This document shows positions 15,553 to 53,831 of a stretch of 64,000 nt of DNA, piece by piece; position 1 is the first letter of the stretch, and each line of letters starts with the position of its first letter. A program made the position numbers and the translations under genes. The notes below the pieces were generated by a model, which saw nothing but the letters and a program-made list of their open reading frames with translations, did not search any database and had not been told where the DNA came from. This stretch comes from an uncultured Rhizobiaceae group bacterium. GTDB taxonomy: Bacteria; Pseudomonadota; Alphaproteobacteria; Rhizobiales; Rhizobiaceae. The DNA lies in NCBI GenBank assembly GCA_947501445.1, contig CANMVS010000006.1, forward strand, positions 124,001 to 188,000. The letters are read 5' to 3'.

Positions 15553-15655
15553 TAGGCCGTTTCACGTTTTGTCAGAAACGGGACAACGGTGTCGGCCTTT
15601 GATTTTGTTGATGCATTCAGGTTTTGCCGATTCCGTCAAAACATGAATTGCTCTA
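15553..15655 (+). repeat. Dispersed two-hairpin repeat, copy B
   Basis: Full-length forward copy lying between the convergent hisM-like and VOC genes. Its right end supplies the TAG stop (15655-15653) of the minus-strand VOC gene: read into the element the sequence is TAGAGCAATTCATG. Confidence 0.9.
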
Positions 15656-16280
15656 AGACGAGCAGAAAAAATTCAATTTGTTGCCATCAGGGTCGCGAAA
15701 ATAACCTCCATAGAAATTTTTACCCCTTGAACCGGGGGCACCCTCATCCGCACCACCCAGTTCCATCGCTTTGGCGTGCATCTCATCCACCTTTGCCGGC
15801 GTTTCAACACTCAAGGCAACCATCGTCCCGTTTCCTGTTGTTGCCGGTTGCCCATCATGGGGCAGTGTAATGGCCAGCATGGTCGTGCCCTTGCCAAAGC
15901 TCCACACTACCATCCTGTCCGTATTGAACGCTCTGCTGCCGCCGACCGCGATCAACAGTGCATCATAGAATTTGGTCGAAATCTCCAAATCATTCGTGCC
16001 TAGTGGATTGATCGAGACAGATGGTACCCATAGATCCAATATCCCGGGTTCTGGGTAGGAGAGGTTTCGCAGTCGATGCGGGCCATCTGCAAGAAAGCTC
16101 GACGCATCCAGAACCCGCGATATTGGACCCGAAGGGCGGGTTTACAGGCCCACCGGATGCGTTGCGCGATGTTTGTGATGAAAATCACGGCACATCACGC
16201 GCCTACCCGGATGAACCTGCAAATCCGTCTATGGGCATCATCTGTCTCGATCAAACCACTAGCATAAGGTAATTGATCAT
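15653..16280 (-). pseudogene. VOC/glyoxalase-family gene split by a MITE-like insertion
   Basis: The 3' part (15653-15999) encodes a vicinal-oxygen-chelate protein from GTNDLEISTKFYDALL to DPDGNKLNFFCSS. Its native start lies beyond the insertion: from 16280 the minus strand reads M-I-N-Y-L-M-L, and removing the 255-bp element plus one CTAG restores a continuous frame ...YLMLGTNDLE, a typical start for this family (122 aa in all). Reading from 16280 into the element meets TGA after nine codons. A TTG at 16039 inside the element could in principle start a chimeric product, but it has no ribosome site. Its metal-dependent function (isomerase, dioxygenase or resistance) is unknown. Confidence 0.85.
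16004..16258. mobile_element. MITE-like non-coding insertion with 31-bp terminal inverted repeats
   Basis: A 255-bp segment bounded by inverted repeats (16004-16034 and 16228-16258, three mismatches) that start TGGATTGATCGAGACAGATG at the left end and TGGTTTGATCGAGACAGATG at the other. It is flanked on both sides by CTAG (16000-16003 and 16259-16262), consistent with a 4-bp target duplication. A second inverted repeat lies inside (16035-16054 with 16108-16127, one mismatch). There is no transposase frame. CTAG fits the YTAR targets of the IS5 group, but the parent family is not identified. Confidence 0.85.
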
Positions 16281-16550
16281 TCCCGGTTTCCGTTCGTTGA
16301 GAGAAGCTGTTCAAATGGAACCGCGATATTTCGACCGCGCCCAATGGCCGTGTTTCTAGCAGCAAACAGCAGGGAATAACCATCGCCCGTCTGTCAGAAA
16401 TTCAAATCGAGATCATCGGATGTTTTACCTGACTGAAATTTTGCTTTACCAAAGGTGCGGGCGCACTGACAGTGGGATGGCGGCAAACCCTATTTTACGG
16501 CAGAAATACGCACATTACTTTGTGCGCATATCCATTTTCAGAGGTCGCAC
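16281..16550. promoter_or_regulatory. Upstream region of VOC gene and TetR gene
   Basis: About 270 bp between the divergent native VOC start and the TetR gene. A short inverted repeat GCACA/TGTGC (around 16511-16526) lies just ahead of the TetR start and could be an autoregulatory site. I see nothing else that I can name. Confidence 0.35.
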
Positions 16551-17129
16551 GTGGTTCGGGCAAAAGACGAAGAAAAACGCTTGGCAATCCGCAATGCGGT
16601 CATTGCAGAAGTCATTGAGGGCGGGCTGGCAGGTGCTTCCGTGGCCCGTATTGCCAAACGGGCAGCGGTTTCCGCCGGGACGATCTATCTCTATTTCCCC
16701 AACAAGGAAGCACTTTTGCAGCAGGTCTATCTGGAAATCAAAACCGATTTTCATGCGCAGATGATGACGGCGCTAAGTGATTCCCGGCCTTCGGATGTCA
16801 ATCTGCGCGCCATGTGGTTTTCCATGTTTAGCTATCTTTGCGCGCACCCCAATGATTTTCTGTTTTCGGAATATGTTGGTGCTGCGCAAGTGCTGGATAC
16901 GGACAGCCAGGCAGAAGTCACCCGTATGTCAGCGCAGATTTCTGAAGTTATCGGCAAGGCAATCCAGGACGGTACACTTGCTCCGGCGCCGATCGATTCA
17001 ATTCTGGCATTGCTGGTCTCACCGGTCATCTATCTGGTTCGCAAATCAATTGTCATGGGTAAACCTGTTGGTCGCAAAACGCTGACCTTGACCTATGATA
17101 TGATTTGGAAAGCAATCGCCGCCTCTTGA
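16551..17129 (+). CDS. TetR/AcrR-family transcriptional regulator
   Basis: 192-aa regulator. The helix-turn-helix is ASVARIAKRAAVSAGTIYLYFPNKEALL (about residues 28-55), followed by a helical effector domain. It starts with GTG at 16551 preceded by AGAGG. It lies immediately upstream of a SnoaL-like/SDR pair, and a perfect 14-bp palindrome sits between its stop and those genes, indicating that it controls them. Small hydrophobic ligands are usual for this family. Confidence 0.88.
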   Translation: MVRAKDEEKRLAIRNAVIAEVIEGGLAGASVARIAKRAAVSAGTIYLYFPNKEALLQQVYLEIKTDFHAQMMTALSDSRPSDVNLRAMWFSMFSYLCAHPNDFLFSEYVGAAQVLDTDSQAEVTRMSAQISEVIGKAIQDGTLAPAPIDSILALLVSPVIYLVRKSIVMGKPVGRKTLTLTYDMIWKAIAAS

Positions 17130-17135
17130 TAAATG

Positions 17136-17149
17136 AATGAATATTCATT
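17136..17149. promoter_or_regulatory. Perfect palindrome, probable TetR operator
   Basis: AATGAATATTCATT is a 14-bp perfect palindrome, 7 bp after the TetR stop and 40 bp before the next start. Its size and symmetry suit a TetR-type operator; a TGAATGAAT...ATTCATT core is common for AcrR-like regulators of oxidoreductase genes. Confidence 0.65.
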
Positions 17150-17188
17150 ACTGAGCGAACTCTACGCATCCAACAGCGGAGTTCAAAC

Positions 17189-18106
17189 ATGTCAAAATTC
17201 ATAGCGGGGCTTATCGTTGCCCTCAGCACGTCCCTCCCTGTATTGGCCATCAGTGCCGACCCGGGCAGAATAGAACAGGGTTACATCAACCATGCGGCCC
17301 TGGCTCAGTTGTACCGGTGGTACCAGCTTTACGAAAACCCCGATGTCCCCATTGAAAACCAACTGGATATTCTGGACCCGGATGTAACAGTCACGTCATC
17401 GCTCGGCACGGCCACTGGACATGACAACTACAAGGAGCGGGTTGGCCAGATTCCGCAAAGCTGGAAAAATGCCCATTTTGTCTCAAATCCCCAAACGACG
17501 ATTGCCCGGGACGGCACAATCTCTCTAAGCGCTGATGTGGCCTACAGCAATCAGGGCATGCTGGCCGATGGACAGATTCGCACCGCAGAACTGACCTATT
17601 CAACAACACTTGCACCCGGTGACGGGATCCTGCCAAAATTCACCCGGATCACCATCACACCGAAGTCAGATGGAACGACCACAGAATATTCCTCTGCCTA
17701 CGGCGAAAATCGGCTGCTCAGTCTGGTGCATTATTGGCTGGCGCTGATTGAAGACCCATCGCGCAATCCCGAGCCGGTTGCAGAAATTCTGGCCGATGAA
17801 TTCAGTCTCAATTTTTCAAGCGGCCCGATAACCGATTTTGAGGATTTCAAGGCATGGCTTGCCGGGCCTGCTTCGCAGGTCAGTGCAAGCACACATGATG
17901 TGAAAAATTTCGAATATGAATCCCGTGGCAACGATCAATACACCTTGAGTGTTGACTTCGACTGGGAGGGCATATTGCCCAATGGCACAGTACTGGAGGC
18001 AGAAACACGTCACAAATGGACGGTATTGGATAATCCGGCAGAACGCTTTGCGCGGGTTAAATCAATGGATGTGGAAATCCTCAAACCCTTCCAACCGAAA
18101 CAATAG
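17189..18106 (+). CDS. Exported protein with two SnoaL-like (NTF2-fold) halves
   Basis: No named function. Residues 1-21 form a signal peptide (FIAGLIVALSTSLPVLAISA). The remainder looks like a duplicated NTF2/SnoaL-like fold: each half opens with a helix (ALAQLYRWYQLYENPD and SLVHYWLALIEDPSRNPEP), followed by a strand-rich region about 100 residues long. Such folds bind or isomerise small hydrophobic molecules. It is followed 13 bp later by an SDR gene and is likely controlled by the TetR upstream. Periplasmic location is unusual for a SnoaL-type domain. Confidence 0.6.
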   Translation: MSKFIAGLIVALSTSLPVLAISADPGRIEQGYINHAALAQLYRWYQLYENPDVPIENQLDILDPDVTVTSSLGTATGHDNYKERVGQIPQSWKNAHFVSNPQTTIARDGTISLSADVAYSNQGMLADGQIRTAELTYSTTLAPGDGILPKFTRITITPKSDGTTTEYSSAYGENRLLSLVHYWLALIEDPSRNPEPVAEILADEFSLNFSSGPITDFEDFKAWLAGPASQVSASTHDVKNFEYESRGNDQYTLSVDFDWEGILPNGTVLEAETRHKWTVLDNPAERFARVKSMDVEILKPFQPKQ

Positions 18107-18119
18107 GAAAGGTTGCCTC

Positions 18120-18998
18120 ATGCAAAGAACATTACTGTTAACGGGCGCTTCTACCGGCCTTGGTGTCGGTATCGCGGTACAAGCAGCGCGAGCCGGCTAC
18201 AAGGTCTATGCAACGATGCGAGACATCAAGCGGCGCGAGACACTGGATGCCGCATTGAAGCAGGCAGAGGTGACCGCGCAGGTATTGACGCTTGACGTAT
18301 GTGACAATGAAACGATTGAAGCAGCCGTTGCCGAAATTATCGATACCGACGGTCAGATTGACGTTCTGGTCAACAACGCCGGTGTCGGCTTTGCACGCAC
18401 AACAGAACAGGCGCTCCAGTCGGACATCGACTGGGTGATGGATGTCAATTTCAACGGTGTTGTTCGATGCACCAAGGCCGTTTTGCCGCATATGCGGGCA
18501 CGGCGTTCCGGCCGCATCGTCGCCATAACATCTGTCGGCGGTCTGGTCGGACAACCGTTCAATGAGATTTACTGTGCATCAAAATTCGCAGTCGAAGGCT
18601 ACATGGAAGGATTGGCAAGTTACGTTGGTCCATCTTTCGGGCTTGACTTCACCGTCGTTGAACCCGCTGGCATCGTGTCCGAATTTGCCAATCGGGCGCT
18701 CGAGCATTTTGCTGCAACAGGTGGGATGCTTGAAGACGAATACCTGCCGATCATCGAAAAATATCTTGCAGGCTTTCGCGGGCGCAGTGGCAGTGAGGGT
18801 GTGTATCAGACAGCCGAGGAAGTCGCCGACGTTGTGATAAAATGCCTGATCATGGAAAACCCGCCCATACGTATCCGCACATCTGATTGGGGTGAACAGT
18901 TCTGTGACCTGAAAACCAGAGCCGACCCTGACGGCAAACGACAGCAAAAAGCAGTTGTTGACGCGCTGCTGGGTGGTTGGCCGGAACGCGCGCGATAG
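18120..18998 (+). CDS. Short-chain dehydrogenase/reductase
   Basis: Classical SDR of 292 aa. The NAD(P) motif TGASTGLG (residues 9-16), the NNAG motif, the catalytic Ser in AITSVGG and YCASK (Tyr and Lys) are all intact. ATG 18120 follows GGAAAGG; upstream in-frame sequence overlaps the previous gene and is not used. The pattern resembles SDRs acting on steroids or long-chain alcohols. It is probably an operon with the SnoaL-like gene under TetR control. The substrate is unknown. Confidence 0.85.
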   Translation: MQRTLLLTGASTGLGVGIAVQAARAGYKVYATMRDIKRRETLDAALKQAEVTAQVLTLDVCDNETIEAAVAEIIDTDGQIDVLVNNAGVGFARTTEQALQSDIDWVMDVNFNGVVRCTKAVLPHMRARRSGRIVAITSVGGLVGQPFNEIYCASKFAVEGYMEGLASYVGPSFGLDFTVVEPAGIVSEFANRALEHFAATGGMLEDEYLPIIEKYLAGFRGRSGSEGVYQTAEEVADVVIKCLIMENPPIRIRTSDWGEQFCDLKTRADPDGKRQQKAVVDALLGGWPERAR

Positions 18999-19066
18999 GA
19001 CGCATCAACCTGGCGCAAGCTTGCTTTGCCAATATGGCCCATCACAACGCAATTGATTTGGGCACG

Positions 19067-19786
19067 ATGGCAAAGCAGGCAGAACAATATACCCACAATA
19101 CATTGGCTGCAGTCGCGTCACGCCGAGCTTTTCTGAGAATGACTGGAACGATCAGTCTTCTGGGACTTTCCGGCTGCCTCAATCGCCAATCGCCAGATGG
19201 TTTTGGGCAACAGACCGCGCCTTCCCGCCAGCTCAATGCACCAATAGAACCCTACAAACTCATGTTCGCGGGCATACACGACCATGGCTACAAAATTGCC
19301 CCAGTCCCCTATCGTCAACTGAAGCCGGACTTTCTTCGCCAGATTGTGCCCAACCCGACAATCAAGCGTGCCGGTACGATCATTGTCGACCGGAAGCACT
19401 GTTATCTCTTGCTGGTTTTATCGCCGTACAATGCGCTGCGTTACGGGATTGCGATAGGACCTCAAAGCACATCCTACAAAGGCGCCGGAACCGTAACCAG
19501 CCGTGAAACCTGGCCGGTCTGGTATCCGGATGGCGCTGACATCAGGCGTAAGCGTTCACTGGAAATCTGGAAAAAGGGCCAGCCGCCAGGCGTCCATAAC
19601 GTCCTTGGTGCCCGGGCGTTATATGTGTCCTGCGATGCACTTCACGCACCCATTGTTATCCATGGCACAAGCCAATGGAAACAAATTGGCAAGCCAATCG
19701 AGACAGGCCAATTCGCCATGCTAAACCAGGACATTATCGACCTTTATCAACGAACGAAATTGGGCGCGCCTGTCCTGATAATTTAG
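19067..19786 (+). CDS. L,D-transpeptidase (YkuD) homologue lacking the catalytic cysteine
   Basis: The YkuD fold covers residues ~100-239: TIIVDRKHCYLLLVL, YGIAIGP, TSRETWPVWYPD, LGARALYV and HGT (199-201) match peptidoglycan L,D-transpeptidases. The active-site block, normally SGCIRM, reads TGQFAM (213-218), so Cys becomes Gln and Arg becomes Ala. The protein should therefore be unable to form the acyl-enzyme. The N-terminus has a twin-arginine-type SRRAFLRM followed by a lipobox-like GLSGC (C37), so a lipid-anchored periplasmic form is likely. Start is uncertain: ATG 19067 or ATG 19034. Confidence 0.8.
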   Translation: MAKQAEQYTHNTLAAVASRRAFLRMTGTISLLGLSGCLNRQSPDGFGQQTAPSRQLNAPIEPYKLMFAGIHDHGYKIAPVPYRQLKPDFLRQIVPNPTIKRAGTIIVDRKHCYLLLVLSPYNALRYGIAIGPQSTSYKGAGTVTSRETWPVWYPDGADIRRKRSLEIWKKGQPPGVHNVLGARALYVSCDALHAPIVIHGTSQWKQIGKPIETGQFAMLNQDIIDLYQRTKLGAPVLII

Positions 19787-19810
19787 CGGGTTGTCGGGGT
19801 AATTTGAAAA

Positions 19811-21409
19811 TCAGAACCCCTTTTTCAAACTACCCAGAATACCGCGCACCAACGCGCGACCAAGCGAACTTGCGACAGAGCGGGCGGCTGATTTCATTGC
19901 TGCTTCCGCCACAGACTGCCGCCGGCGGCCCGAGCGAGCGCGCGTCGGCTTTTTGCGGCGGGATGATTTTCTGCGGCCTCGGGTGTCAACATCATCGTCA
20001 TCATCTTCATCGCCAAACCCCGGCAGGGTCCAGCGTCTGCTTTCCTGTAGTTCTTCACCCTGATCTTCCTCTTCGCGGCGCTTGGCCTCTTCTGCCTCTG
20101 CTGCGTCTTCAGCCCGTTTTTGCAGAATTTCAAAAGCGGAATTCCGGTCAAGGTCTTCATCATAAAGATCAGCAACCGGACTGACAGCGACTGCCTTGCG
20201 TCTTTCACCATCCTTGAGAGGGCCAAGCCGTGAAGCCGGTGGCCGGATCAGCGTGCGTTCCACCACTGATGGCACACCCTTGGATGCCAGCGTGGACACC
20301 AGAGCTTCGCCGACGCCGAGCTGGGTGATGGCTTCAAAACAGTCAAATTCGGGATTTGCGCGGAATGTTTCAGCCGCCGTTTTGACGGCCTTTTGCTCTC
20401 TGGGGGTATAGGCGCGCAGCGCGTGCTGAATACGATTGCCCAATTGCGAAAGTACGGTTTCAGGAACGTCCAGCGGATTTTGTGTTACGAAATACACCCC
20501 GACGCCTTTTGAACGGATCAAACGGACAACCTGCTCCACACGCTCAATCAGTGCTTTGGGCGCGTCATTGAACAGCAAATGCGCTTCATCAAAAAAGAAT
20601 ACGAGACGCGGTTTTTCCGGATCACCGATTTCAGGCAGCTCTTCAAACAATTCAGAGAGCAACCACAACAGGAAAGTCCCATAAAGGCGCGGGTTCATCA
20701 TCAATTTGTCTGCAGCAAGTACACTGATCGCCCCGCGTCCATCAGCCGTTGTGCGCATGATATCCTTGATATCCAAGGCCGGTTCGCCAAAAAACATCTC
20801 GGCGTTTTGTTGCTCCAGCACCAGCAGATCGCGCTGGATGGCACCAACAGACTGCTTTGAAATATTGCCATAAAGTCCGGACAGTTCTTTGGAATGTTCG
20901 GCCAGATAGGCCAGCATGGCCTGCAGGTCTTTCATATCCAGCAATGGCAGACCATTCTCATCAGCGATCTTGAAGGCGATATTCAGCACGCCCTCCTGCG
21001 CATCCGACATATCCATCAGGCGCGAAAGCAAAAGCGGACCCATTTCCGTCAGCGTCGTGCGTATTCGGTGGCCCTTTTCACCAAACAGATCCCAGAAAAT
21101 AACCGGGAATTCCTGAAACTCATAAGGGTCCAGACCAATATCCGAGGCACGTTTTTCCAGAAAATCCTTATATTCGCCAATGGCAGCAATGCCGGACAAG
21201 TCGCCTTTGACGTCCGCACAGAAAACTGGCACGCCGGCGTTTGAGAAACTCTCGGCAAGTATCTGCAGTGTAACCGTTTTTCCGGTTCCGGTTGCGCCTG
21301 TAATCAACCCATGGCGATTGGCATAGCCCAAATCCAGATATTCGCCCTTGTTGATTGAATCATCCGGCTTACGACTTGTTCCGAGATAAAGTTTTCCGTC
21401 CTGAAGCAT
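19811..21409 (-). CDS. YjgR/HerA-like ATPase (DUF853)
   Basis: P-loop ATPase of the HerA/FtsK-like group. Walker A is GATGTGKT (residues 38-45), Walker [14 protein letters not shown], with an arginine-finger-like region near [18 protein letters not shown]. After about residue 430 comes a charged tail (acidic then Arg/Lys-rich) that ends in a small amphipathic segment. 532 aa. Family members are widespread in Proteobacteria and of unknown role. It is a single gene convergent with the YkuD homologue. Confidence 0.85.
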
Positions 21410-21678
21410 AATACTGCACGGCCCCCTGTGTTCCTGGCGTTATTTATAGGGGCCAAGTGTGCATCAAACAATTACCGATTGGTTCAACAGGAGATTTAGT
21501 TTGTATTTTGTCGGGGTCGTCCATTTGTATTCGGACAAATCGATTCACATAAAGCGGTTATCGCGTTGTAAATTCATTCTTTTGAAGTTTTCACACATCC
21601 GCGTCTGCGCCCATGACTTGACTTGCCGCGACGCCTCATCATCATTTTAACAAGAATAGCCATAGGAGGCACAATAAT

Positions 21679-22068
21679 ATGGAAAAGGTTCTTGGCATCG
21701 GTGGATTCTTTTTTCGTTCCAGCGACCCGGGAAAGCTGGCTGACTGGTACAGCCAGCACCTGGGAATTGACGTCAGCCCAAAAGATTATGACACAGCCGC
21801 CTGGCGACAATCCGGCGGTACAACCGTATTCGCCCCATTTGCCCAGGATACAAAATATTTTGGCGATCCATCGCAACAATGGATGATTAATTTTCGCGTA
21901 AGCGACCTGGATGCAATGGCCCGTCAATTGGAGGCCGCAGGGATCACAGTCGATATAGACAGTGAAACCTATCCAAATGGTCGTTTCGCGCAAATTTCCG
22001 ACCCGGAAGGAAATCCGATCCAACTGTGGCAGCCGATTGGTATCGATGTGGATCGGGAGGAACACTGA
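21679..22068 (+). CDS. VOC/glyoxalase-family protein
   Basis: 129-aa single-module vicinal oxygen chelate protein: FFFRSSDPGKLADWYSQHLGI at the start and ISDPEGNPIQLWQP at the end, which holds the usual glutamine/glutamate metal or substrate region. AGGAGG (21664-21669) precedes the ATG. It is alone between divergent and parallel genes. Function could be lyase, isomerase or antibiotic-binding; the sequence does not decide. Confidence 0.8.
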   Translation: MEKVLGIGGFFFRSSDPGKLADWYSQHLGIDVSPKDYDTAAWRQSGGTTVFAPFAQDTKYFGDPSQQWMINFRVSDLDAMARQLEAAGITVDIDSETYPNGRFAQISDPEGNPIQLWQPIGIDVDREEH

Positions 22069-22285
22069 TGTGAAACAGGGTCACCCTTTGCGCGAGGACG
22101 CCGCACACAACAGCAAGGTCTGGTTCTGACCGGGATTCGGTGTGGTCCATATTCTGTTTACACCGTCTTGTTATGATCCAGCCGCAAGCCTGTTTTGTTT
22201 GAATGGATACATTTGAACAGGACAGGCGTTGGAACACAAAGAACACAATTCTGGTCCCGGGCGACCCTAACTCATGGGTGATGAA

Positions 22286-23662: not shown

Positions 23663-23668
23663 ACGGAT

Positions 23669-23772
23669 TGGGCCGTTTCACGCTTTGTCAGAATCGGGAC
23701 AACGGTGTCGGCCTTGGGTTTTATTGATGCATTCAGGTTTTGCCGATTCCCGTCAAAACCTGGATTGTCTTA
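23669..23772 (+). repeat. Dispersed two-hairpin repeat, copy C
   Basis: Forward copy, the most diverged full-length one, with one extra C in the second hairpin. It fills the gap between two convergent genes. Its right end (read inward TAAGACAATCCAGG) supplies the TAA stop of the asparaginase gene. Confidence 0.88.
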
Positions 23773-24774
23773 AACAAGAGCCTGCGTAACGCCGATGGTG
23801 CCCACATCCATTGCATTCCAATTGCGCAAATTACGGTTGGCCTGTTGGTGCAGCTTGTGCCGCACCTCATCTCCGGCTTTCAGAAAACGCCCGCAAAGAG
23901 CTGCAACCATCGCCTCTGCCGCGCGGGTTGTGCCATCATCACATTTCAGCGCTATGGCAAGTCCCTCGTCGGGCAGTACCGCACAAAATACACCCTCGGC
24001 ACCGGTCTTGGCGAATAATCTGCCGGGCGCCGTTTTCATCAACCGTGTACACGCACGTCCTGACCCGGCGACAAATTCCGGTGCGTTCATGCAGGCTGAA
24101 ATGATGCGTTTTGAAGCCTGGGCCCGGATCGGTTGCAGTCCATTACCCGTCGCCATTCTTGCAAAACCGTGCGCAATTGCAGGTAGCGGCACCGCATAGG
24201 TGGGGATGGAACATCCATCCGTGCCGCAGTTATCAACGGCAAAATGTGCACCGGTCAATTCGCCCATAGTATCACGGATCATGGTCTGAATTGCATGATC
24301 ATAGTTGATATAACCGCTTGGATTGATGCCGAGATGACAAGCCGTACAGACAAATCCGGCATGTTTGCCGGAACAATTATTATATAAAGACGTCGGTTCC
24401 TGCCCTGACTTTGCCAATGCAATCGTTGCTTTTTGATCCATGGGCCATTGGCACCCGCACTCCAGCGCGGTGAGATCGCACCCTGCAGATGCGAGCATCG
24501 TTTCAGCCAATTGCGCATGGCGTTGCTCACCCGAATGGGAAGCACAGGCCAGTGCCAGTTCGCGATCACCAAACCCAAGCGCATCAGCGGCGCCGCTTTC
24601 GACCAGTGGCAATGCCTGCATGGCTTTAACGGCAGATCTGGGAAAAACAGGCACATCAACGTCGCCGATGCTGAATAATGTTTTTCCATCGCCATCAACC
24701 ACAACGGCCGAACCGCGATGGCGGCTCTCCACCCGTCCACCACGGGACACTTCCACCACAATCGGATTGGTCAT
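23770..24774 (-). CDS. Asparaginase, rhizobial ReAV-like class
   Basis: Hydrolyses L-asparagine to aspartate and ammonia in the cytoplasm. It belongs to the asparaginase group typified by Rhizobium etli, unrelated to E. coli AnsA/AnsB. Residues S47 and K50 (FPRSAVK), C134 and K137 (NNCSGKH) and C188 (DGCSIP) match, one position shifted, the catalytic Ser48/Lys51 and the metal-site Cys135/Lys138/Cys189 of that enzyme. 334 aa is normal. Single gene; its TAA stop is the first codon of repeat copy C. Confidence 0.92.
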   Translation of the reverse strand: MTNPIVVEVSRGGRVESRHRGSAVVVDGDGKTLFSIGDVDVPVFPRSAVKAMQALPLVESGAADALGFGDRELALACASHSGEQRHAQLAETMLASAGCDLTALECGCQWPMDQKATIALAKSGQEPTSLYNNCSGKHAGFVCTACHLGINPSGYINYDHAIQTMIRDTMGELTGAHFAVDNCGTDGCSIPTYAVPLPAIAHGFARMATGNGLQPIRAQASKRIISACMNAPEFVAGSGRACTRLMKTAPGRLFAKTGAEGVFCAVLPDEGLAIALKCDDGTTRAAEAMVAALCGRFLKAGDEVRHKLHQQANRNLRNWNAMDVGTIGVTQALV

Positions 24775-24909
24775 TTCACTGCCTTTTCAATACTGAATGC
24801 ACCCCATAACGTGTGTCATCCGCCAATGCAATCGACTGGCCGTGCCAGGGTCTGTTGAAGATCAGTCAATTGTCGCGCTGGCAGACCGGCTCATGTTCGT
24901 TTGGAATAA

Positions 24910-25902: not shown

Positions 25903-25996
25903 TTACACGATCCCACCGTTTTCCCGGGGCAGCCCTTTGTTAAGGGCAGTTTCGCCAAATGGCCCCTTGAAAACTGACATAACGCAATTCTTTGGC

Positions 25997-26022
25997 AATT
26001 GGCACATGAAAATATGCCAATT
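25997..26022. promoter_or_regulatory. Inverted repeat upstream of galE
   Basis: AATTGGCA and TGCCAATT form perfect 8-bp arms with a 10-nt spacer, between the thiolase stop and the galE start, both minus strand. No T-run follows, so an operator or mRNA hairpin is more likely than an intrinsic terminator. Confidence 0.4.
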
Positions 26023-26048
26023 ACCTTTCTGGCTTACCCAGCGCGGTC

Positions 26049-28945: not shown

Positions 28946-29339
28946 GGTGCACCTCGTTGGCTCTATGGAATGCGAAATTCATATAGGCTTTGACCGTAAA
29001 ATCAAACAAATTCAGTTTGGCCTTAGACCCATTTGGTCTAATTCTTTTTTCCTCAAGACACTTAACTGCGTCAACCTGTTTTGCCTCGCCGGTCAATGGT
29101 TTCTCTATCAAAACAGGCCATGCGGCCAGTATGATCTGCGGGTTGAATTTTTTTTCTTGAATGAACGACCAATAAAAAATATTTATAAGATTAACTCCAC
29201 CCGAAAGCCTGTGCATTTGCACGCGCTCCTTTGAGGCGGAAACAGGGCCTGGTCTAACCTAGTCGACCCAATTAGTGGATTTGGCGGATCAATACAGATG
29301 GTGCATCGCTGCCATGCAGCCAAACTGAAGGACGCCACA
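28946..29339. promoter_or_regulatory. Divergent promoter region of ALDH and betCBA
   Basis: A 394-bp A/T-rich region without a gene. It holds the inverted repeat TTAGACC-N5-GGTCTAA (29023-29041) and another GGTCTAA at 29251-29257 inside a looser GGTC/GACC dyad. The shared GGTCTAA unit suggests sites for one regulator, perhaps BetI-like, although no betI gene is present in the window. Confidence 0.5.
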
Positions 29340-30866: not shown

Positions 30867-30868
30867 TT

Positions 30869-32341: not shown

Positions 32342-32398
32342 CAATTCCTTTGGCGCGGGCAAAACGACCCGAGTGCCCATGTTGAGGTTCGAACGAAC

Positions 32399-34048
32399 AT
32401 GAACGCAGATTATATAATCATTGGCTCCGGATCAGCAGGGTCAGCAATGGCCAGCCGCCTTTCGGAAGACGGCAAACATTCGGTCATTGTGCTTGAGTAT
32501 GGCGGAAGTGATATTGGTCCATTCATTCAGATGCCAGCCGCCCTGTCCTACCCCATGAATATGGGAATCTACGACTGGGGCTACCATACCGAACCTGAAC
32601 CGCATCTTGGCGGCCGAAAACTCGCGGCACCTCGCGGCAAGGTCATCGGCGGTTCATCTTCCATCAACGGCATGGTCTACGTGCGCGGACATGCCGAAGA
32701 TTTCAACGGATGGGAAGAGGCTGGCGCGCAAGGCTGGTCTTACGCCGATGTTCTGCCCTATTTCCAACGCCTTGAAACCTCACACGGCGGGCAGGATCGC
32801 TGGCGCGGCACCGATGGCCCCTTGCACGTGCGGCGTGGTGGCAGCAAAAATCCGTTGTTTGAATGCTTCATTGAAGCTGGCAGACAGGCAGGCTTTGAAA
32901 CGACCGCTGACTATAATGGTGAAAAACAGGAAGGTTTCGGCCAGATGGAGCAGACAATCCATCGCGGCAAACGATGGTCTACTGCCAATGCCTATTTGAA
33001 ACCGGCGCTGAAACGACCCAACTTGACTCTGGTCAAATGTCTCGCTCGACGCATTATCATCGAAAACGGCCAGGCCACTGGTGTTGAAATCCAGCGCGGC
33101 AATAAAATTGAGATCGTGCGCGCTGATCGGGAAGTGATTCTGGCCGCATCCGCATTCAATTCTCCAAAATTGCTGATGCTTTCGGGTATTGGACCGGCAG
33201 CGCAGCTGCGGGATCTGGGTATCGACGTTGTGGCAGACAGGCCCGGCGTTGGGGCCAATCTGCAGGACCATCTGGAACTCTATGTGCAACAGGAATGCAC
33301 GCAGCCCATCACACTGTATTCGAAGCTCAATTTGATTTCCAAAGGTCTGATCGGCGCAGAATGGCTGTTCCTCAAATCCGGCCTTGGCACAAGCAATCAC
33401 TTCGAAGCGGCAGCTTTCGTGCGTTCGCGTGCCGGCATCCGTTATCCGGACATCCAATACCACTTTCTGCCCGTCGCAATCCGCTATGATGGAACGGCAG
33501 CGGCAAAGGCACACGGTTTCCAGGCCCATGTCGGCCCCATGCGATCCGCATCGCGCGGCCAGGTCACGCTGAAATCGTCGGACCCCAATGCTGCGCCATC
33601 CATTCAGTTCAACTATATGAGTGCTCAATCAGACTGGGAAGAATTTCGCCATTGCATTCGCCTTACCCGGGAGATCATTGGTCAGGAGGCTTTTGACGCC
33701 TATCGCGGCAAAGAAATTGCACCGGGAGATTCCGTGCAGACAGATGCTCAGCTCGATGCCTTTATTGCTGAACATGTGGAAAGTGCCTACCATCCCTGCG
33801 GTACATGCAAAATGGGTCATGCGGATGATCCAATGAGTGTCGTAGATCCACAATGCCGTGTCATTGGTGTCGATGGTTTGCGGGTCGCAGATTCCTCCAT
33901 CTTCCCGAACATTACCAACGGCAATCTCAATGGCCCGTCCATCATGGTCGGCGAAAAGGCATCGGATATGATTCTTGACAAGGCGCCATTGCCCCGATCC
34001 AATCTGGAACCGTGGATACATCCGCAGTGGGAGAAATCAGACAGATAG
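32399..34048 (+). CDS. betA: Choline dehydrogenase
   Basis: FAD-dependent GMC oxidoreductase that oxidises choline to betaine aldehyde, membrane-associated in related bacteria. The N-terminal [15 protein letters not shown] dinucleotide motif, [25 protein letters not shown] and the catalytic histidine of HPCGTCKMG are all intact. 549 aa. It starts 57 bp after betB. The operon order C-B-A is the rhizobial arrangement, but betI is missing. Confidence 0.94.
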
Positions 34049-34530
34049 CAACAGGCACCTGTTGTTCGAATCTGGTGGCGCGACGAAAGTGCAATGGTCA
34101 GGCAGAAATTGACAGAGGGCAATGCAGGAGCATGACGAGGGCCAATTTTGCTTCGTTGTGCGGTGTACCGTGCGTTGTTGTCCGGGTCCCCCAAAGGTAA
34201 TTTGCATTTGCTGCTCCAAAGCAACAATATTTCGTCACACAGCGCTTGATATTTTATCCGGAAATGCTAAGTGCAGGGTCCGGTCAGACAAACACACACT
34301 GATCATGATGGGGCGTAGCCAAGCGGTAAGGCAGCGGTTTTTGGTATCGCCATGCGCTGGTTCGAATCCAGCCGCCCCAGCCACCTTTCAATTCCCTCGA
34401 CACACGGCAATCACAGGTCAATTTCCGGCGTCGGACAAATCAGGTTTTGGCGGAATCGGCAAAGCCTGAATGCGTCAACACAATCAAAGGCCGACACCGT
34501 TGTCCCGTTGCTGACAAAACGTGAAACGGT
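34049..34530. other. Intergenic region holding tRNA-Gln and repeat copy D
   Basis: The first 260 bp after betA show no gene or clear terminator. tRNA-Gln (34309-34383) follows and repeat copy D fills the space up to the lysR stop. Confidence 0.7.
34309..34383 (+). tRNA. tRNA-Gln (anticodon TTG)
   Basis: Acceptor stem TGGGGCG (34309-34315) pairs with CGCCCCA (34373-34379), discriminator G and an encoded CCA follow. The anticodon stem GCGGT/ATCGC encloses the loop TTTTGGT, giving anticodon TTG. The T-arm has GGTTCGAATCC. 75 nt including CCA. Confidence 0.97.
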
Positions 34531-34533
34531 CTA
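34436..34533 (-). repeat. Dispersed two-hairpin repeat, copy D
   Basis: Reverse-orientation copy just downstream of tRNA-Gln. Its end at 34533 (read inward TAGACCGTTTCACG) supplies the TAG stop of the lysR gene, here through the opposite terminus to that used in copies B, C and E. The distal terminus is slightly degraded. Confidence 0.88.
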
Positions 34534-35439
34534 ATCAGGTACTGCCTTCTGCTCCCAATAGGGTGGTTTTCCATATTTTGTTTGCAGGAAATCAATCAGT
34601 ACCGCAACTTTTGGCGGCGTTATCCTGGCCGGTGGATAGACAGCCCAAATGTCACCACTGCGAGTGATCGGATAATCCTTCATGACTGCAACCAGAGACC
34701 CCCTGTGAAGATCTTCCCAGACATGGGCCACAGATTTGACGGAAAGGCCCAGGCCAAGTAAAGCCGCATCATAGGCATAGTCACCATTATCGCCGGTTAT
34801 GGTCGAAGAAACAGTGTGACTGATTTCACCCTTGGGACCTTGAAAATGCCACACCGGCAATGAGCTCATGCCGATGCAATCGTGTTGTGCCAGGTCAGAG
34901 GGCGTTTTAGGTTCACCACGCCGCGCAATATAGTTCGGGGAGGCACATAAAACCCTGCGGTTGCTGCCCAAACGACGCGCCATCAAAGTGGAATCAGGCA
35001 ATGGGGCGTTTCTTATCGCCAAATCAAATCCATCACCAATGATGTCAACAAGCCTGTCCGTGAAACTCATATCAATGCGTACCAGCGGGTAAAGCGCCAT
35101 GAATTCATTCAGGTAAGGCAGTATGTGGATACGGCCAAAGAAGCTATTGCTGGATATGCGTAATTGCCCGCGCGGCACATCTGATCTTGCATCAAGCGCA
35201 TCAAAGGCCATGTCCATTTCATCAAGCGCATTTTGTGCGTGATTGCGCAGCAAACGACCGGCTTCGGTAAGGGTCATTTGACGCGTTGATCTGGCCATAA
35301 GCTGTGCGCCAATTGCCTTTTCGAGTGTCGTCAAACGCGCACTTGAAGCGGATGGGGACAAACCAAATTGCCGCCCGGCCTCAGACAGGTTTCCAAGGTC
35401 TGCTACACGAACAAAAAACCGTAAATCATCAAGTCTCAT
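34531..35439 (-). CDS. LysR-family transcriptional regulator
   Basis: 302-aa LTTR: N-terminal winged helix (DLRFFVRVADLGNLSEAGRQFGLSPSASSARLTTLEKAIG) and a periplasmic-binding-like effector domain beginning GQLRISSNSFFGR. The sequence falls in the large group next to CrbR/DmlR-type regulators. No divergent target gene is evident: upstream is the 3' end of the GntR gene on the same strand. Its stop codon is the first codon of repeat copy D. Confidence 0.9.
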   Translation of the reverse strand: MRLDDLRFFVRVADLGNLSEAGRQFGLSPSASSARLTTLEKAIGAQLMARSTRQMTLTEAGRLLRNHAQNALDEMDMAFDALDARSDVPRGQLRISSNSFFGRIHILPYLNEFMALYPLVRIDMSFTDRLVDIIGDGFDLAIRNAPLPDSTLMARRLGSNRRVLCASPNYIARRGEPKTPSDLAQHDCIGMSSLPVWHFQGPKGEISHTVSSTITGDNGDYAYDAALLGLGLSVKSVAHVWEDLHRGSLVAVMKDYPITRSGDIWAVYPPARITPPKVAVLIDFLQTKYGKPPYWEQKAVPD

Positions 35440-35708
35440 CTTGCCAAAACTTCGAAAGGTTATGTGAATACAACCCTAATTATACCGACATTTGGCATGT
35501 GCGATAGTGTGTGTAGAGAAAGGATATGAACATGATGCATTCACATGACCATTACGAGACACGCGCCAGAGCATTGCGTCACCAGGCGATCTCATCAACT
35601 TTGCGGTCGTTTCGTCGCTGGATTGGCAGGCAAGCCATTCGCCGCCCATAATCATTGCCTGAAGTGCAGCCGGGGATAATTGTACGGGCGCGTTGTTAGG
35701 GCTTTTGT

Positions 35709-35730
35709 AAAAAATCCGGTATTTAACCGG
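35709..35730 (-). terminator. Intrinsic terminator of the GntR gene
   Basis: On the minus strand CCGGT-TAAAT-ACCGG is followed by ATTTTTT, 37 nt after the GntR stop. The stem is short (5 bp) but GC-rich and the T-run is good. Confidence 0.7.
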
Positions 35731-35766
35731 CGCGCCTGGTATCTCACTATCAGGCACAGGCGTGCC

Positions 35767-36456
35767 TCAGTCCTCGAAAAACTCCGGCCGGGCGCTGCGG
35801 GCAGTTTCAACCGTGCTGTCCAACCGTGTGAGGTGCTGGCGCAGCAGGTTCACCAGGCCGGCTTCGTATTTTGCTTTCAGGTGTTCATAGATACCCAAAT
35901 GGTCCTCATAAATTTCCGCAAGTCCTTCGCGCGAAGACAGGCTGATCATGCAAAGCCGATCGACATGAGCCTTATTCTGCGAAATGGTTTCAAAGGCGAA
36001 TTCACATTGCGCGGAGGCACAAATCAGATGATGGAACACATAGTCAAGCGCATGAAAATCCACCGCATTCAGCCCATCGACTGAACGCTTTTGCTGTTCA
36101 AGATTTTGCTCAAATGCTTCCGCATACTGCCCATCATAAACACCGCAAGCCCGGCGAACGACTTCGGTTTCAACAGCAGTTCGAATAAAACGGGAATTGA
36201 GAATTTCGCTTTTGGATATTTTGCGTATCAGGGTTGCCCGTTGAGGGCGAATCTCGAGCAACCGCATATTGCCAAGCCGGATAAATGCTTCGCGAACCGG
36301 TTGACGCGACACCTGGAATTGACCGGCAACATCCACCTCTGACAATTTGGTTCCCGGTGCCAACCGGAGCGAAATAATTTCGTTGTGCAATTGATCGAAG
36401 ACATCATCAACTGCTGATCGTCTCGGCGTGCTCACTTGAATAGACTGCATACCCAT
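35767..36456 (-). CDS. GntR-family regulator (FCD/FadR subfamily)
   Basis: 229-aa regulator. The N-terminal winged helix has SEVDVAGQFQVSRQPVREAFIRLGNMRLLEIRPQRATLI (about residues 37-75), then an all-helical FCD domain with the metal-binding Asp/His pattern (DFHALDYVFHHLI and the later DHLGIYEHLKA). Start at ATG 36456 has GAGGG 6 nt upstream. It is divergent from a TRAP importer and most likely its repressor, sensing a sugar acid or related metabolite (inference). A repeated TACCATAC element lies in the shared region. Confidence 0.9.
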   Translation of the reverse strand: MGMQSIQVSTPRRSAVDDVFDQLHNEIISLRLAPGTKLSEVDVAGQFQVSRQPVREAFIRLGNMRLLEIRPQRATLIRKISKSEILNSRFIRTAVETEVVRRACGVYDGQYAEAFEQNLEQQKRSVDGLNAVDFHALDYVFHHLICASAQCEFAFETISQNKAHVDRLCMISLSSREGLAEIYEDHLGIYEHLKAKYEAGLVNLLRQHLTRLDSTVETARSARPEFFED

Positions 36457-36837
36457 TTCACCCTCGCTACAGCTGCGGCATCTACCATACCAGGTTGGAC
36501 CTGAATAGTGCGTTTCCGCCAGACGCTCATCGTATCTCGTCATGCCCGACTATATTGCAGCACTTCCGACACGCCTTGAATCATCAATCAAAGCAACCTG
36601 AATATCGGACATCTATCGACGTTCTGCCATGCCTTCGGCCCTGGCAAGTTCCGACACATCTGCCGGTTTACCCCCCCTTGCCCAATCATGTTATACGTCC
36701 GAATGATGGATTACCATACTAGTCGACATTTTTCTTGACCTGTCTGCGATTCGGTGATTAATACGCCTTCATGTCTCACGGGAGGAGATGCTGGAAATGC
36801 GTTTTGGCATCGCCGCAGAGACCAAGGGAGAATTCAG
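36457..36837. promoter_or_regulatory. Divergent regulatory region gntR / dctPQM
   Basis: 381 bp without a gene. TACCATAC followed by CAG or TAG occurs at 36483-36490 and 36712-36719, one near each promoter, and is a candidate binding element for the GntR regulator. Confidence 0.45.
36735..36764 (+). promoter_or_regulatory. Candidate sigma-70 promoter of the TRAP operon
   Basis: TTGACC and TAATAC separated by 18 nt, about 74 bp before the dctP start and just downstream of the second TACCATAC element. Confidence 0.4.
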
Positions 36838-37839
36838 ATGAATGTACTGACCAACACGAAAAACCTGTTCCGGGGCGCTGCGCTTGCTGGCTTATTGACC
36901 CTGTCAGCCACCGCCTCTCAAGCGGCAGATCAGACACTGCGCGCAGCCAGTCTCTTCGACGGCGACCATGCCTACAGCAAGACACTTGCGCTCTTCGGTG
37001 ATCTGGTTAACGAGTATTATGATGGTGATGTCGAAATCGACATTCGCGGCAACAGCGAACTGGGCATTGAAAAAGACTATATTAATTTTCTCAACCAGGG
37101 CGTAGCAATTGATTACGCGATCGCGGCACCTTCCAACCTGGCGCGCTTTGCTCCTTCAGTGCCCCTCATGGACATGCCTTTTGTGTTTCGCGATCTCGAT
37201 CACTGGAATGCTGTCCTGTCGAGTGATGTCCTCAAGCCACTCGAAGATGAATTGCTTGAAAAGGCTGACATCATGGTCATTGGCTATGCTGGCGGTGGAA
37301 CACGCAACCTGATTTCCAACAAGAAGATCTCCGAGATGGGTGAGCTTGAAGGCCACAAAATGCGGGTCATGGGTGCACCGATACAAGCGAGAATATTTGA
37401 TGCGATCAGCGCAAACCCATCAGCAATTGCCTACTCGGAAGTCTATAACGCCATACAGACAGGCCTCGTCGACGGGCTTGAAAATGAATCCGCCAGTTTG
37501 CTGCAGTACAAGTTTTTCGAAGTGGCTCCACATGTGACGCTCACACAGCATTCCATTACGGTGCGCCCCTTGCTCTTCAGCGGCAAAAGTTTTCGCAAGC
37601 TGCCCGAAGATCTGCAGCAGGCGATCTTGAAGGCGGGCAAGGAAGCGGGCGAATTTGGCCGCAAGCTTGAGTCGGAACAGGATGCTGAAAAGCTCAAACA
37701 GATGGCTGATGCCAAGCAGATTGAAGTGCATCCCTTTGAAGGCCGTGAGCAACTACTTGAGCTTGTTGTTCCTGTACAGGACGCCTATGCGCAGGAGCTG
37801 GGTGCCGAAGACCTGCTCCAGTCCATTCGTTCCAAGTAA
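36838..37839 (+). CDS. dctP: TRAP transporter solute-binding protein (DctP)
   Basis: Periplasmic receptor of a TRAP importer, 333 aa. Signal peptide through ASQA-ADQ. The DctP fold shows the conserved carboxylate-binding arginine region (GHKMRVMGAPIQARIFDAISANP) and SEVYNAIQTGLVDGLENE. ATG 36838 follows AGGGAG. With the sugar enzymes downstream, a sugar acid or related hydroxy acid is a reasonable ligand guess, but the sequence does not fix it. Confidence 0.92.
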   Translation: MNVLTNTKNLFRGAALAGLLTLSATASQAADQTLRAASLFDGDHAYSKTLALFGDLVNEYYDGDVEIDIRGNSELGIEKDYINFLNQGVAIDYAIAAPSNLARFAPSVPLMDMPFVFRDLDHWNAVLSSDVLKPLEDELLEKADIMVIGYAGGGTRNLISNKKISEMGELEGHKMRVMGAPIQARIFDAISANPSAIAYSEVYNAIQTGLVDGLENESASLLQYKFFEVAPHVTLTQHSITVRPLLFSGKSFRKLPEDLQQAILKAGKEAGEFGRKLESEQDAEKLKQMADAKQIEVHPFEGREQLLELVVPVQDAYAQELGAEDLLQSIRSK

Positions 37840-37850
37840 GAATGCCGGTT

Positions 37851-37882
37851 CGGCACTGCAATCCACCAGGATCGCAGTGCCG
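37851..37882 (+). promoter_or_regulatory. Intercistronic hairpin dctP-dctQ
   Basis: CGGCACTGC pairs with GCAGTGCCG, continuing after one unpaired base each side into ATCC/GGAT around an ACCA loop. It lies 12 bp after the dctP stop, with no T-run. It could protect the dctP message end and so raise receptor level over the membrane subunits. Confidence 0.6.
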
Positions 37883-38006
37883 TGCCAATGACTGTTGAGG
37901 CACAAATCGCATTGCAGTAAAGCCGCGGAGCGTCAACAATTTCAGCAGCATGGCGGCCGTTCTTCCATTTCTGATTCAGGGAAAACGCTTTGCTGACACC
38001 ACGCCA

Positions 38007-38513
38007 ATGGATCGAACCATGATAAAACGCATTCTTGAATATTTCTGTCAGGTACTGCGCATTCTTGTTGGCGGGCTTGTCGCCGCGCTTCTTGTGCCTG
38101 TTGCGATGCAGGTGATCGCCCGATACACGGGTCTTATCCCTGTCTATCTGTGGACCGAAGAAGTTGCCACTTTCATCTTTGTATGGATTGTCATGCTGGG
38201 CTCGATGATTGCGGTTTGGGAAGGCACCCATTTTGAAGTGCATGTGACAGCCGACGCAAAAACGCCTCTGGGCCGGCTGCTTCAAAAGGGCATTGTGCTG
38301 GCTCTCGTATCGACTTTCGCCTTGCTGTTCGCTTGGTACGGGATTGGCTATGCGAAATTTGGCTCAATCCAGCAATCGGTGATGATGCAGGTCAATCTCA
38401 TCGTCATCTACGCTTCTGTGCCGATTGCCGGTGCTGGATGGGCCGCCTTTGCCCTCTACCGTCTCTACGAGGCTTTCGCAGAATTTGCTGATACACGGGG
38501 GGCACCATCATGA
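38007..38513 (+). CDS. dctQ: TRAP transporter small permease (DctQ)
   Basis: Four hydrophobic segments (for example ILVGGLVAALLVPVAMQVIA and FIFVWIVMLGSMIAVWEG) and the DctQ family region LWTEEVATFIFVW. 168 aa from ATG 38007; ATG 38019 is also possible and neither has a strong ribosome site. Its stop overlaps the dctM start. Confidence 0.88.
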   Translation: MDRTMIKRILEYFCQVLRILVGGLVAALLVPVAMQVIARYTGLIPVYLWTEEVATFIFVWIVMLGSMIAVWEGTHFEVHVTADAKTPLGRLLQKGIVLALVSTFALLFAWYGIGYAKFGSIQQSVMMQVNLIVIYASVPIAGAGWAAFALYRLYEAFAEFADTRGAPS

Positions 38514-39820
38514 TTGTCACAACGCTTCACGCCTGCCTTTTGCTGGTCGGCAGTTTTGTACTGCTCGTCGGCATTAGGGTGCCGGTCGCTTTTGCACTCG
38601 GCCTTGCAACAATTCCTGTTGTTGTGCTGGATCTTCGCCTGACACCATTTTTGATCATGGATCGGATGTTCCAGTCCTACAATTCATTCATTCTGCTGGC
38701 CGTACCGTTCTTTTTACTTGCCGCCAATCTCATGAATGCCGGAAAAACGACAGATCGGTTGATCGCCTTCGCCCGGGTTCTGACCGGTTGGCTTCCGGGC
38801 GGCCTTGGTCAGGTGAATGTTGCTGTTTCAATGCTGTTTGCAGGCATCTCCGGTTCATCCACGGCAGACGCGGCCGGATGCGGAAAAATTCTGATCCCGG
38901 CCATGGTCAAGGAAGGTTATGACAAACGATTTGCCGTGGCGATTACCGCCTGCTCATCGGTGATGGGCGTCATCATCCCGCCGAGCATCCTGATGATTGT
39001 CTGGGGTGGCGTCATGTCAGTTTCGGTCGGGGCGTTGTTCCTTGCCGGGGCCATACCCGGTCTGATGATCGCCGCAGCCCTGATGGCCACGGTTTATGTT
39101 TATGCCAAGATTTATGACTACCCGACGGTTGGCAGACCAACCTTCGGCACATTCTGGGTGGCGTTCAAAGGGGCAGCCCTTGCTCTACTCACCCCTGTGC
39201 TCGTCATCGGCGGCATTGTTGGCGGCATTGTCACACCAACTGAAAGCGCCATCATAGCGGCATTTTACTCTTTCATCCTTGGATTTTTTGTCTACCGAAC
39301 CATAACAGCGCGTGAACTTGTACACGTGCTCTATGACACGGGACGGTTTGCCTCCATTTCGCTGTTTGCCATTGGAACAGCCTCGGTCTTTGGCTGGATG
39401 CTGGCTTTCTACAATGTGCCCCGCCTGCTCATCGAGGTGATGAGCGGGCTTCAATTTGGCACTTTTGGCACGTCGCTGGTCATTGCCGGCCTGTTTTTAC
39501 TGTTCGGATTGTTCATCGATGCCATTCCCGCCATCATCATTTTGGGAACGGTTCTGTTTCCGGTGGCCAGCGCAGCAGGTATTCATCCGGTCGTCTTTGC
39601 GATTATTGGCATTGTCTCACTCGCTTTCGGCCTCGTCACGCCACCCTATGGGCTGTGCTTGCTCATTTCGGCCGCCATTGGCAACCTCAACGTGGTGCAG
39701 GTCTTGCGCGATGTGGTTATCATCCTGGTACCGATGCTGCTCATCCTGTTGCTGATAATCCTGTTTCCCCAAATCGCGCTTTGGTTGCCAGGACTGCTGA
39801 TGCCTGGCTCTTTTCAGTAA
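38510..39820 (+). CDS. dctM: TRAP transporter large permease (DctM)
   Basis: 436-aa sodium-coupled membrane subunit with about 12 hydrophobic segments. Diagnostic blocks are MLFAGISGSSTADAAGCGKILIPAM and GVIIPPSILMIVWGG. Overlaps dctQ by ATGA, so translation is coupled. Confidence 0.93.
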   Translation: MIVTTLHACLLLVGSFVLLVGIRVPVAFALGLATIPVVVLDLRLTPFLIMDRMFQSYNSFILLAVPFFLLAANLMNAGKTTDRLIAFARVLTGWLPGGLGQVNVAVSMLFAGISGSSTADAAGCGKILIPAMVKEGYDKRFAVAITACSSVMGVIIPPSILMIVWGGVMSVSVGALFLAGAIPGLMIAAALMATVYVYAKIYDYPTVGRPTFGTFWVAFKGAALALLTPVLVIGGIVGGIVTPTESAIIAAFYSFILGFFVYRTITARELVHVLYDTGRFASISLFAIGTASVFGWMLAFYNVPRLLIEVMSGLQFGTFGTSLVIAGLFLLFGLFIDAIPAIIILGTVLFPVASAAGIHPVVFAIIGIVSLAFGLVTPPYGLCLLISAAIGNLNVVQVLRDVVIILVPMLLILLLIILFPQIALWLPGLLMPGSFQ

Positions 39821-39908
39821 GCGCGCATTAAATCAAACGAACATCAATCCACACCATCCATGGCCCGCCAAATGAGCACCCGCCATCGAACATTGTCAGG
39901 AGACAGGA

Positions 39909-40658
39909 ATGAACATGAAAGACAAAACAGTCATCGTCACAGGTGGCGGTCGTGACATTGGTCGCGCCTGTGTCCTTGGCCTGGCGGCGCAGGGGGCGAG
40001 GGTCGCAATCAATTATCACTCCAGCGGCACCGGCGCCCAATCTGCTGTAGAGGAGATATCTGCCAGCGGCGGTGCCGCTTTTGCTCTGCAGGGAGACATG
40101 ACCAGTCAGGCCGATGTCAAGAAATTGGTGTCAGAAACACAAAAACATTTTGGCGCAGATATTCACGCGCTGGTCCACGTCACCGGCGGCCTGGTTGCCC
40201 GTAAAACAATTGAGGAAATGGACCTCGAGCACTGGCACACGGTCATGAACCTCAACACCACATCAATGTTCCTGACGGTCAAGGAAGTGGAACCCCACAT
40301 GCCTGAAGGAAGTGCCATCGTCGCATTTTCATCACAGGCCGGACGCGATGGTGGCGGTCCGGGTGCCGTTGCCTATGCAACCTCCAAGGGCGCGATGATG
40401 ACCATGACGCGCGGTCTTGCCAAGGAACTGGGTCCGCGTATACGGGTGAACGCGATTTGCCCTGGCATGATTGATACCGATTTTCACAACGTGTTTACGG
40501 CAGACACGGTGCGCGCCCATGTTGCAAACGTCAGCCCGGTCAAGCGGGAAGGAACGCCTGATGACACCGCAAATCTGGCTGTTTTTCTCGCCAGTGACCA
40601 ATCAGCTTTCATGACGGGTGCATGCGTTGATATCAACGGCGGCATGCTGTTTTCCTAG
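39909..40658 (+). CDS. SDR-family oxidoreductase
   Basis: 249-aa short-chain dehydrogenase. Nucleotide motif TGGGRDIG (residues 12-19), active-site Ser in AFSSQAG and YATSK are intact. The usual NNAG is HVTGG, a variant seen in one SDR branch. Located 88 bp after dctM with AGGAGACAGG upstream, so probably the fourth gene of the TRAP operon and acting on the imported compound. The TAG stop is the first codon of repeat copy E. Confidence 0.85.
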   Translation: MNMKDKTVIVTGGGRDIGRACVLGLAAQGARVAINYHSSGTGAQSAVEEISASGGAAFALQGDMTSQADVKKLVSETQKHFGADIHALVHVTGGLVARKTIEEMDLEHWHTVMNLNTTSMFLTVKEVEPHMPEGSAIVAFSSQAGRDGGGPGAVAYATSKGAMMTMTRGLAKELGPRIRVNAICPGMIDTDFHNVFTADTVRAHVANVSPVKREGTPDDTANLAVFLASDQSAFMTGACVDINGGMLFS

Positions 40659-40713: not shown

Positions 40714-40769
40714 CAATGATCCATCCCGTCATCTGAAGGTGCGACGGGACGGAGGTGGATTTTGAAAGC

Positions 40770-53829: not shown

Positions 53830-53831
53830 GG

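Follow-up and report, generated by a model that had tools for sequence, protein, structure and literature searches.

Why should the stop codons of genes coincide, to the nucleotide, with the end of an intergenic repeat? The question is raised by a stretch of 64,000 nucleotides from an uncultured Rhizobiaceae group bacterium (GenBank assembly GCA_947501445.1, contig CANMVS010000006.1, positions 124,001 to 188,000 of the forward strand; hereafter the window). It contains six copies (A to F) of a 103-bp repeat, and in copies B, C, D and E the stop codon of the adjacent gene is the first codon of the element, read inward. All four positions were confirmed, copy D using its other end. A preliminary description of the window had judged four copies out of six hard to attribute to chance, and had proposed insertion at gene 3' ends, through a target preference for stop codons or selection for in-frame TAG entry, with trimming or replacement of native C-termini. 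The reading considered highly probable here is that a miniature element targeting Y-TA-R (C or T before, and A or G after, a TA) splits TAA and TAG stop codons and rebuilds TAG from its own terminus, leaving the protein largely unharmed.

The repeat unit includes a TA at each end (consensus TAGAGCAATTCAGGTTTTGACGGAATCGGCAAAACCTGAATGCATCAACAAAATCAAAGGCCGACACCGTTGTCCCGTTTCTGACAAAACGTGAAACGGTCTA), and its consensus termini, TAGAG...GGTCTA, carry a G next to each TA reading inward. The element end sequences are TAGAGCAATTC and TAGACCGTTTC; the terminal inverted repeats are imperfect, the inner 17 nt (GAGCAATTCAGGTTTTG and GACCGTTTCACGTTTTG) being identical at 13 of 17 positions by eye on the consensus. 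The source genome (G000, 6.82 Mb) yielded 644 first-look candidates, of which 40 were scored. A profile search was then applied to the first 400 kb of contigs C1 to C4 plus the window (1.664 Mb), where 173 copies were detected, none of them within a called gene; three without an intact end were dropped, and 170 were counted.

The distance and frame of the neighbouring stop codon, which the preliminary description had suggested tabulating, were recorded per end for these 170 copies, as the offset between the terminal TA and the stop of the gene running towards that end. There was a clear excess at offset 0, with 28 cases at left ends and 18 at right ends (148 intact ends on each side), while every other offset from -30 on occurred at most three times per end. 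A stop lay at the terminal TA in 45 of the 170 copies, or approximately 26% (41/164 without the window copies). The expected share was 5.3% if copies were spread evenly over non-coding TAs, 10.8% after weighting for target preference, and 11.6% with preferences derived from non-stop copies only. The excess is therefore real, yet the rate is about 26% and not the 67% of the window; at a rate of 25%, simple arithmetic gives a chance of about 4% for at least four of six, and the window was a lucky draw that overstated the true rate. Among 49 genes entering an element, 46 ended at offset 0, one at -1 and two at +16/+17, and entry in any frame was rejected on this count. Random truncation would spread over three frames, so the single-frame spike speaks against it. 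The triplets serving as stops were TAG (40), TAA (5) and TGA (1), as compared with 674 TGA, 377 TAG and 320 TAA among all called genes.

The copies away from stops revealed the target preference of the element. Y-TA-R was found at 72 of the 91 complete non-stop copies and at 15% of intergenic TAs; taken singly, A or G followed the right TA in 87/91 and C or T preceded the left TA in 76/91. With preferences taken from non-stop copies only, the number of copies per weighted TA site in G000 was 0.41 for stops, 0.53 for sites 1-30 nt further downstream and 0.12 for all others. The element prefers Y-TA-R targets, and after weighting the stops of G000 are no more densely occupied than the sites nearby, an explanation that looks simpler than stop-codon-specific targeting; the latter is unnecessary in this genome, and the congener G002, rich in the element, is ambiguous. 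The suggested target preference for stop codons thus holds insofar as the preferred sites include stops, yet nothing in it is special to them. Since TAA and TAG are TA-R sites at the border of the tolerated space, stops are commonly occupied.

A mechanism can be proposed on these grounds. The element would insert into TA, preferably within Y-TA-R, with a presumed duplication of the TA; insertions in coding sequence would be purged, leaving survivors that are intergenic and mostly located soon after gene ends. An insertion at a TAA or TAG stop would split the codon between TA and R. As both element ends continue TA with G, the gene would regain a TAG, the original A or G would be displaced to the far flank, and the protein would be unchanged. 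Where tail-to-tail genes had one common YTAR, each would receive its own stop, and later selection would keep the stop-serving TA while other ends decay.

The far-flank base agreed with such an origin. It was A or G in 33 of the 36 at-stop ends of G000 (20/20 with an intact far TA) and in 22 of the 23 of G002 (11/12 with an intact far TA), giving a pre-insertion TAA or TAG; this argues against selection for in-frame TAG entry as the cause of the coincidence. In addition, stops were found at both ends of a single copy five times, at C4:208187 (G000), L212 (G002), and L247, L261 and L263 (genomes of other genera). By eye, the flanks of these five copies give CTAA or TTAG before insertion, a YTAR able to serve both convergent genes.

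The copies of the window and the genes that end in them are as follows:

7705..7807, plus strand: copy A, complete (TA...TA); no stop within 100 nt.
15553..15655, minus strand: copy B, complete; the glyoxalase/VOC gene stops at its left-end TAG (15655-15653); far flank TA followed by G.
15653..16039, minus strand: glyoxalase/VOC-family gene (PF00903), ending in copy B.
23669..23772, minus strand: copy C, complete, diverged; the left-end TAA (23772-23770) is the asparaginase II stop; far flank CA followed by A.
23770..24774, minus strand: L-asparaginase II gene (PF06089), ending in copy C.
34431..34533, plus strand: copy D, left end decayed; the right-end TAG (minus strand, 34533-34531) is the LysR stop.
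34531..35439, minus strand: LysR-family regulator gene (PF00126, PF03466), ending in copy D.
39909..40658, plus strand: short-chain dehydrogenase (SDR) gene (PF13561), ending in copy E.
40656..40715, plus strand: copy E, right part lost, no far end; the left-end TAG (40656-40658) is the SDR stop.
53728..53830, minus strand: copy F, complete; left TA decayed to CA.

Within the window, an A or G far flank holds for copies B and C; in copy D the far-flank base at the decayed end is C, which gives no clear pre-insertion codon. Beside copy F, an amidohydrolase gene (PF04909) has its TGA stop 4 nt before the decayed terminus. Orthologues were drawn from six congeners (G001, G003-G007) in which a DNA search found no copy. 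Three of the six asparaginase II orthologues end at the same residue and the other three within 2 residues, the single SDR orthologue compared (G003) has the same last residue, followed by TAA, two orthologues of the LysR gene are 3 and 5 residues shorter, and the glyoxalase/VOC gene had no clear orthologue in the six congeners.

The coincidence was replicated in other genomes. In G002, 64 profile hits were reduced to 50 copies after removing duplicates and those near locus ends, and 24 of these (48%) were at a stop (14/43 left ends and 11/46 right ends); they had been picked by consensus similarity and not by position, and one pattern locus (L179) had no element. Across the family, a covariance model run under strict filters and scoring at most 13 candidates in each genome found matches in 12 of 297 genomes and 9 of 109 genera, own genome and genus included. 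In four genomes from three other genera, 14 of 40 copies were at a stop (40 of the 41 matches listed were examined), namely 6/13 in G138, 2/11 in G157, 5/9 in G224 and 1/7 in G020. Replication outside the genus thus covers four of the 12 model-matching genomes. Within the genus, the element was numerous in two of eight genomes (644 and 230 first-look candidates) and the other six gave no match, a patchy distribution that is a sign of separate bursts or of loss.

The number of copies also varied with gene arrangement. Near gene ends, convergent genes had several times as many copies per weighted site between them as tandem genes did, and divergent genes had the fewest (C1-C4 and the window). 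Convergent regions held 87 copies per 100 weighted TA sites at stops and 89 at 1-30 nt (preferences from all copies), tandem regions 21 and 27, respectively, and 5 were counted between divergent genes.

A role at the 3' end of the mRNA, with the hairpins of the repeat acting as terminator or stabiliser and keeping it at gene ends so that the overlap with stops follows, is unlikely to explain these patterns, although several observations point that way. The predicted fold of the consensus transcript, two hairpin arms with a linker, is strong (z -4.55), copies per site are more numerous between convergent genes, and paired positions of 126 copies showed 46 double changes against 27.7 expected, 24 of them compensatory, a modest excess. 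However, the RNAalifold consensus of 63 copies was near zero (-1.23 kcal/mol), leaving the fold weakly supported across copies, and sequence identity did not differ measurably between copies at stops (0.923, n 35) and the others (0.911, n 91; p 0.42). On these data the support for a conserved RNA fold was judged weak. At the gathering thresholds of Rfam, only a tRNA matched in the window. The hairpin loop of the consensus also contains GAATC (GANTC); this site is intact in 71 of 126 copies, and its conservation does not exceed that of its surroundings. A selected function as methylation site was therefore unsupported. A candidate second repeat at L071:111-235 did not, by eye, look bounded by TA.

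It is also rather improbable that gene ends are the natural niche of the element and not a by-product. The Y-TA-R target would then be the very signature of TAA and TAG, including the stop shared by tail-to-tail genes, and with G at both ends the element would have evolved to find there a safe site that heals itself, each insertion into a stop restoring one in both directions.

Another possibility is that the element lands inside the coding 3' end and that only those frames survive in which a TAG follows immediately, the C-terminus being trimmed. Here the comparison of C-termini, which the preliminary description had expected to reveal trimmed or replaced ends, is informative. Among 35 orthologues at 10 sites, 15 had the same C-terminus and 28 ended within 2 residues. 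In a wider comparison, at-stop genes (39 pairs, 11 genes) gave 19 exact matches and 32 within 2 residues, as compared with 58 and 67 in controls (77 pairs, 14 genes); for the 2 genes that lie immediately upstream of an element (9 pairs) the numbers were 7 and 8. The difference between at-stop genes and controls reached p = 0.015 in a pairwise test in which pairs were not independent. The median orthologue excess was more than 2 residues (4-10 residues) in 3 of 11 at-stop genes vs. none of 14 controls, while orthologues were shorter (median) in 1/11 and 2/14, respectively. The three genes with longer orthologues, identified by matching offsets, are C3:69398, C3:125721 and C1:156477. The far flanks indicate TAG at the first two and TAA at the third, with the far TA intact, so that an older shift of the stop position is the simplest explanation. 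Given the orthologue ends, the pre-insertion stops indicated by the far flanks, these three sites included, and the near lack of genes entering in the two other frames, such trimming is very unlikely as the general explanation. As a rule it was rejected: the C-termini of at-stop genes appear mostly native on sequence comparison, with a small residue of cases in which truncation by a few residues is possible.

In searches at individual loci, L107 gave no more than a short match beside one at-stop site, nothing matched around the at-stop sites of L068, and L077 supplied a usable orthologue at one of two sites. A different hairpin repeat (TCCGAAAAGTG...CGGTTTTCGGA) was seen at L150:490-631 (three units) and L151:743-769 (G001 and G004), directly after the TAA stop of the orthologue of the gene that carries the element at C3:5522 in G000; a second repeat family may occupy the same gene-end niche. 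In G007, just past the orthologous gene end at L169, a short stretch (TAGACCGTTTCATGG) resembles the right end of the element, although the DNA search of that genome found no copy; it is possibly an old relic.

Finally, that a transposase or co-factor recognises stops or gene ends as such, and is steered there (for instance through termination, RNA or terminator structure), is highly improbable. In its favour, copies at stops are frequent in both genomes, sites of G000 lying at a stop or up to 30 nt from it hold copies about 3.5-4.5 times as densely as the remaining intergenic sites, and G002 stops exceed near-downstream sites. On the other hand, the G000 stop is no denser than the following 30 nt after Y-TA-R weighting, and the purging of insertions from coding sequence and promoters would be expected to enrich 3' ends.

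Several points weigh against the insertion of a Y-TA-R-targeting element into pre-existing stops. Besides the shortage of exact C-termini and the longer orthologues described above, stops in G002 look more favoured than near-downstream sites, with 24 copies on 8.6 weighted sites at stops as against 4 on 2.8 shortly downstream and 22 on 21.7 elsewhere; these sites are few and come from 35 loci only, whereas copies were taken from all loci. An A or G at the far flank is about equally frequent at non-stop copies, so this base serves as a site-by-site reading and not as an enrichment. Moreover, no base-level empty site was found in relatives, so the native TAA or TAG rests on the far flank; most relatives share about 65-80% DNA identity, and TGA is the stop in 19 of the 35 orthologues. 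A search of the source genome for DDE_3 (PF13358), covering this family in this genome only, gave no match at E <= 0.001, and so yielded no IS630 DDE_3 transposase partner. Genes were called with a purpose-written hexamer open reading frame caller and no annotation, and the site-density count by gene arrangement placed 16 copies in an unresolved class and counted 46 stop copies instead of 45. Even so, the repeat looks like a non-autonomous miniature transposable element; of the traits of a TA-target element that an IS630/Tc1-mariner-type transposase would mobilise, it shows terminal inverted repeats, TA at both ends and the Y-TA-R preference.

What happens after insertion could be followed from the decay of the ends. 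TA persisted as the terminal dinucleotide at only 18 of the 34 far ends in at-stop copies and at 76 of 182 ends in the others, yet no gene in the G000 survey reads through a decayed frame-0 stop. At-stop copies are not measurably younger than others (identities given above). As other ends decay and no frame-0 read-through occurs in copies no younger than the rest, the stop-serving TA is probably held by selection.

Decayed terminal dinucleotides in G000 (e.g. L055:18405-18507 and L040:241-343) tend to match as inverted, not direct, repeats. The left/right pairs were TG/CA (8) and CA/TG (8) vs. TG/TG (1) and CA/CA (1; shuffle p 0.009). In G002, CA/CA (2) and TG/TG (1) were found among 39, with no TG/CA or CA/TG, so that the inverted pattern was not shown there. 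It may reflect pairing or templated correction of the two ends.

The proposed insertion of the element into stops offers a simple and testable reason why small TA-bounded repeats often 'encode' stops, as the target dinucleotide starts two of the three stop codons and the first base of the element completes one. It follows for annotators that genes ending in such repeats need not be truncated. It also points to a set of insertion sites that are nearly neutral, among them sites where one insertion separates two genes with a common stop.

Repeats supplying stop codons are already known. Searches of open-licence papers turned up neither this particular element nor the Y-TA-R explanation with a weighted control nor the two-gene cases, and the accessible part of a 2024 review of miniature inverted-repeat transposable elements (MITEs; PMC10969869) does not mention 'stop codon'. 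In Streptococcus pneumoniae, 36 coding sequences have their extreme 3' end and stop inside a BOX repeat, and truncation was described there as without strong evidence (Croucher 2011, PMC3049150). The phenomenon is the same as here, gene stops being supplied by a repeat, yet the repeat is another one and the portion of that paper available gives no target-site explanation. The termini of GTAG REPs, palindromes of 20-40 bp tagged with GTAG at one end and hypothesised to be moved by RAYT tyrosine transposases, often supply a TAG stop to flanking open reading frames (Di Nocera 2013, PMC3733652); unlike them, the present element has 103 bp and a TAG at both ends. ERIC (RU-1) can remove a stop and extend the protein (Delihas 2007, PMC2759123), whereas no frame-0 extension was seen in the G000 survey. 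The RUP, ERIC and Correia MITEs are non-autonomous, of about 100-200 bp, with TA termini and target duplication, and mainly intergenic (Delihas 2007, PMC2229807); the element shares their size class, TA termini and intergenic location. The Caulobacter CcrM-associated intergenic repeats (CIR) are described as strictly intergenic, of about 110 bp, with TA termini, two hairpin arms with a linker and GANTC in one loop (PMC2229807). Compared by description, and with a loop GANTC in its consensus that only the fraction of copies given above retains intact, the element resembles them in length, TA at both termini, two predicted arms with a linker, intergenic location and occurrence in alphaproteobacteria.

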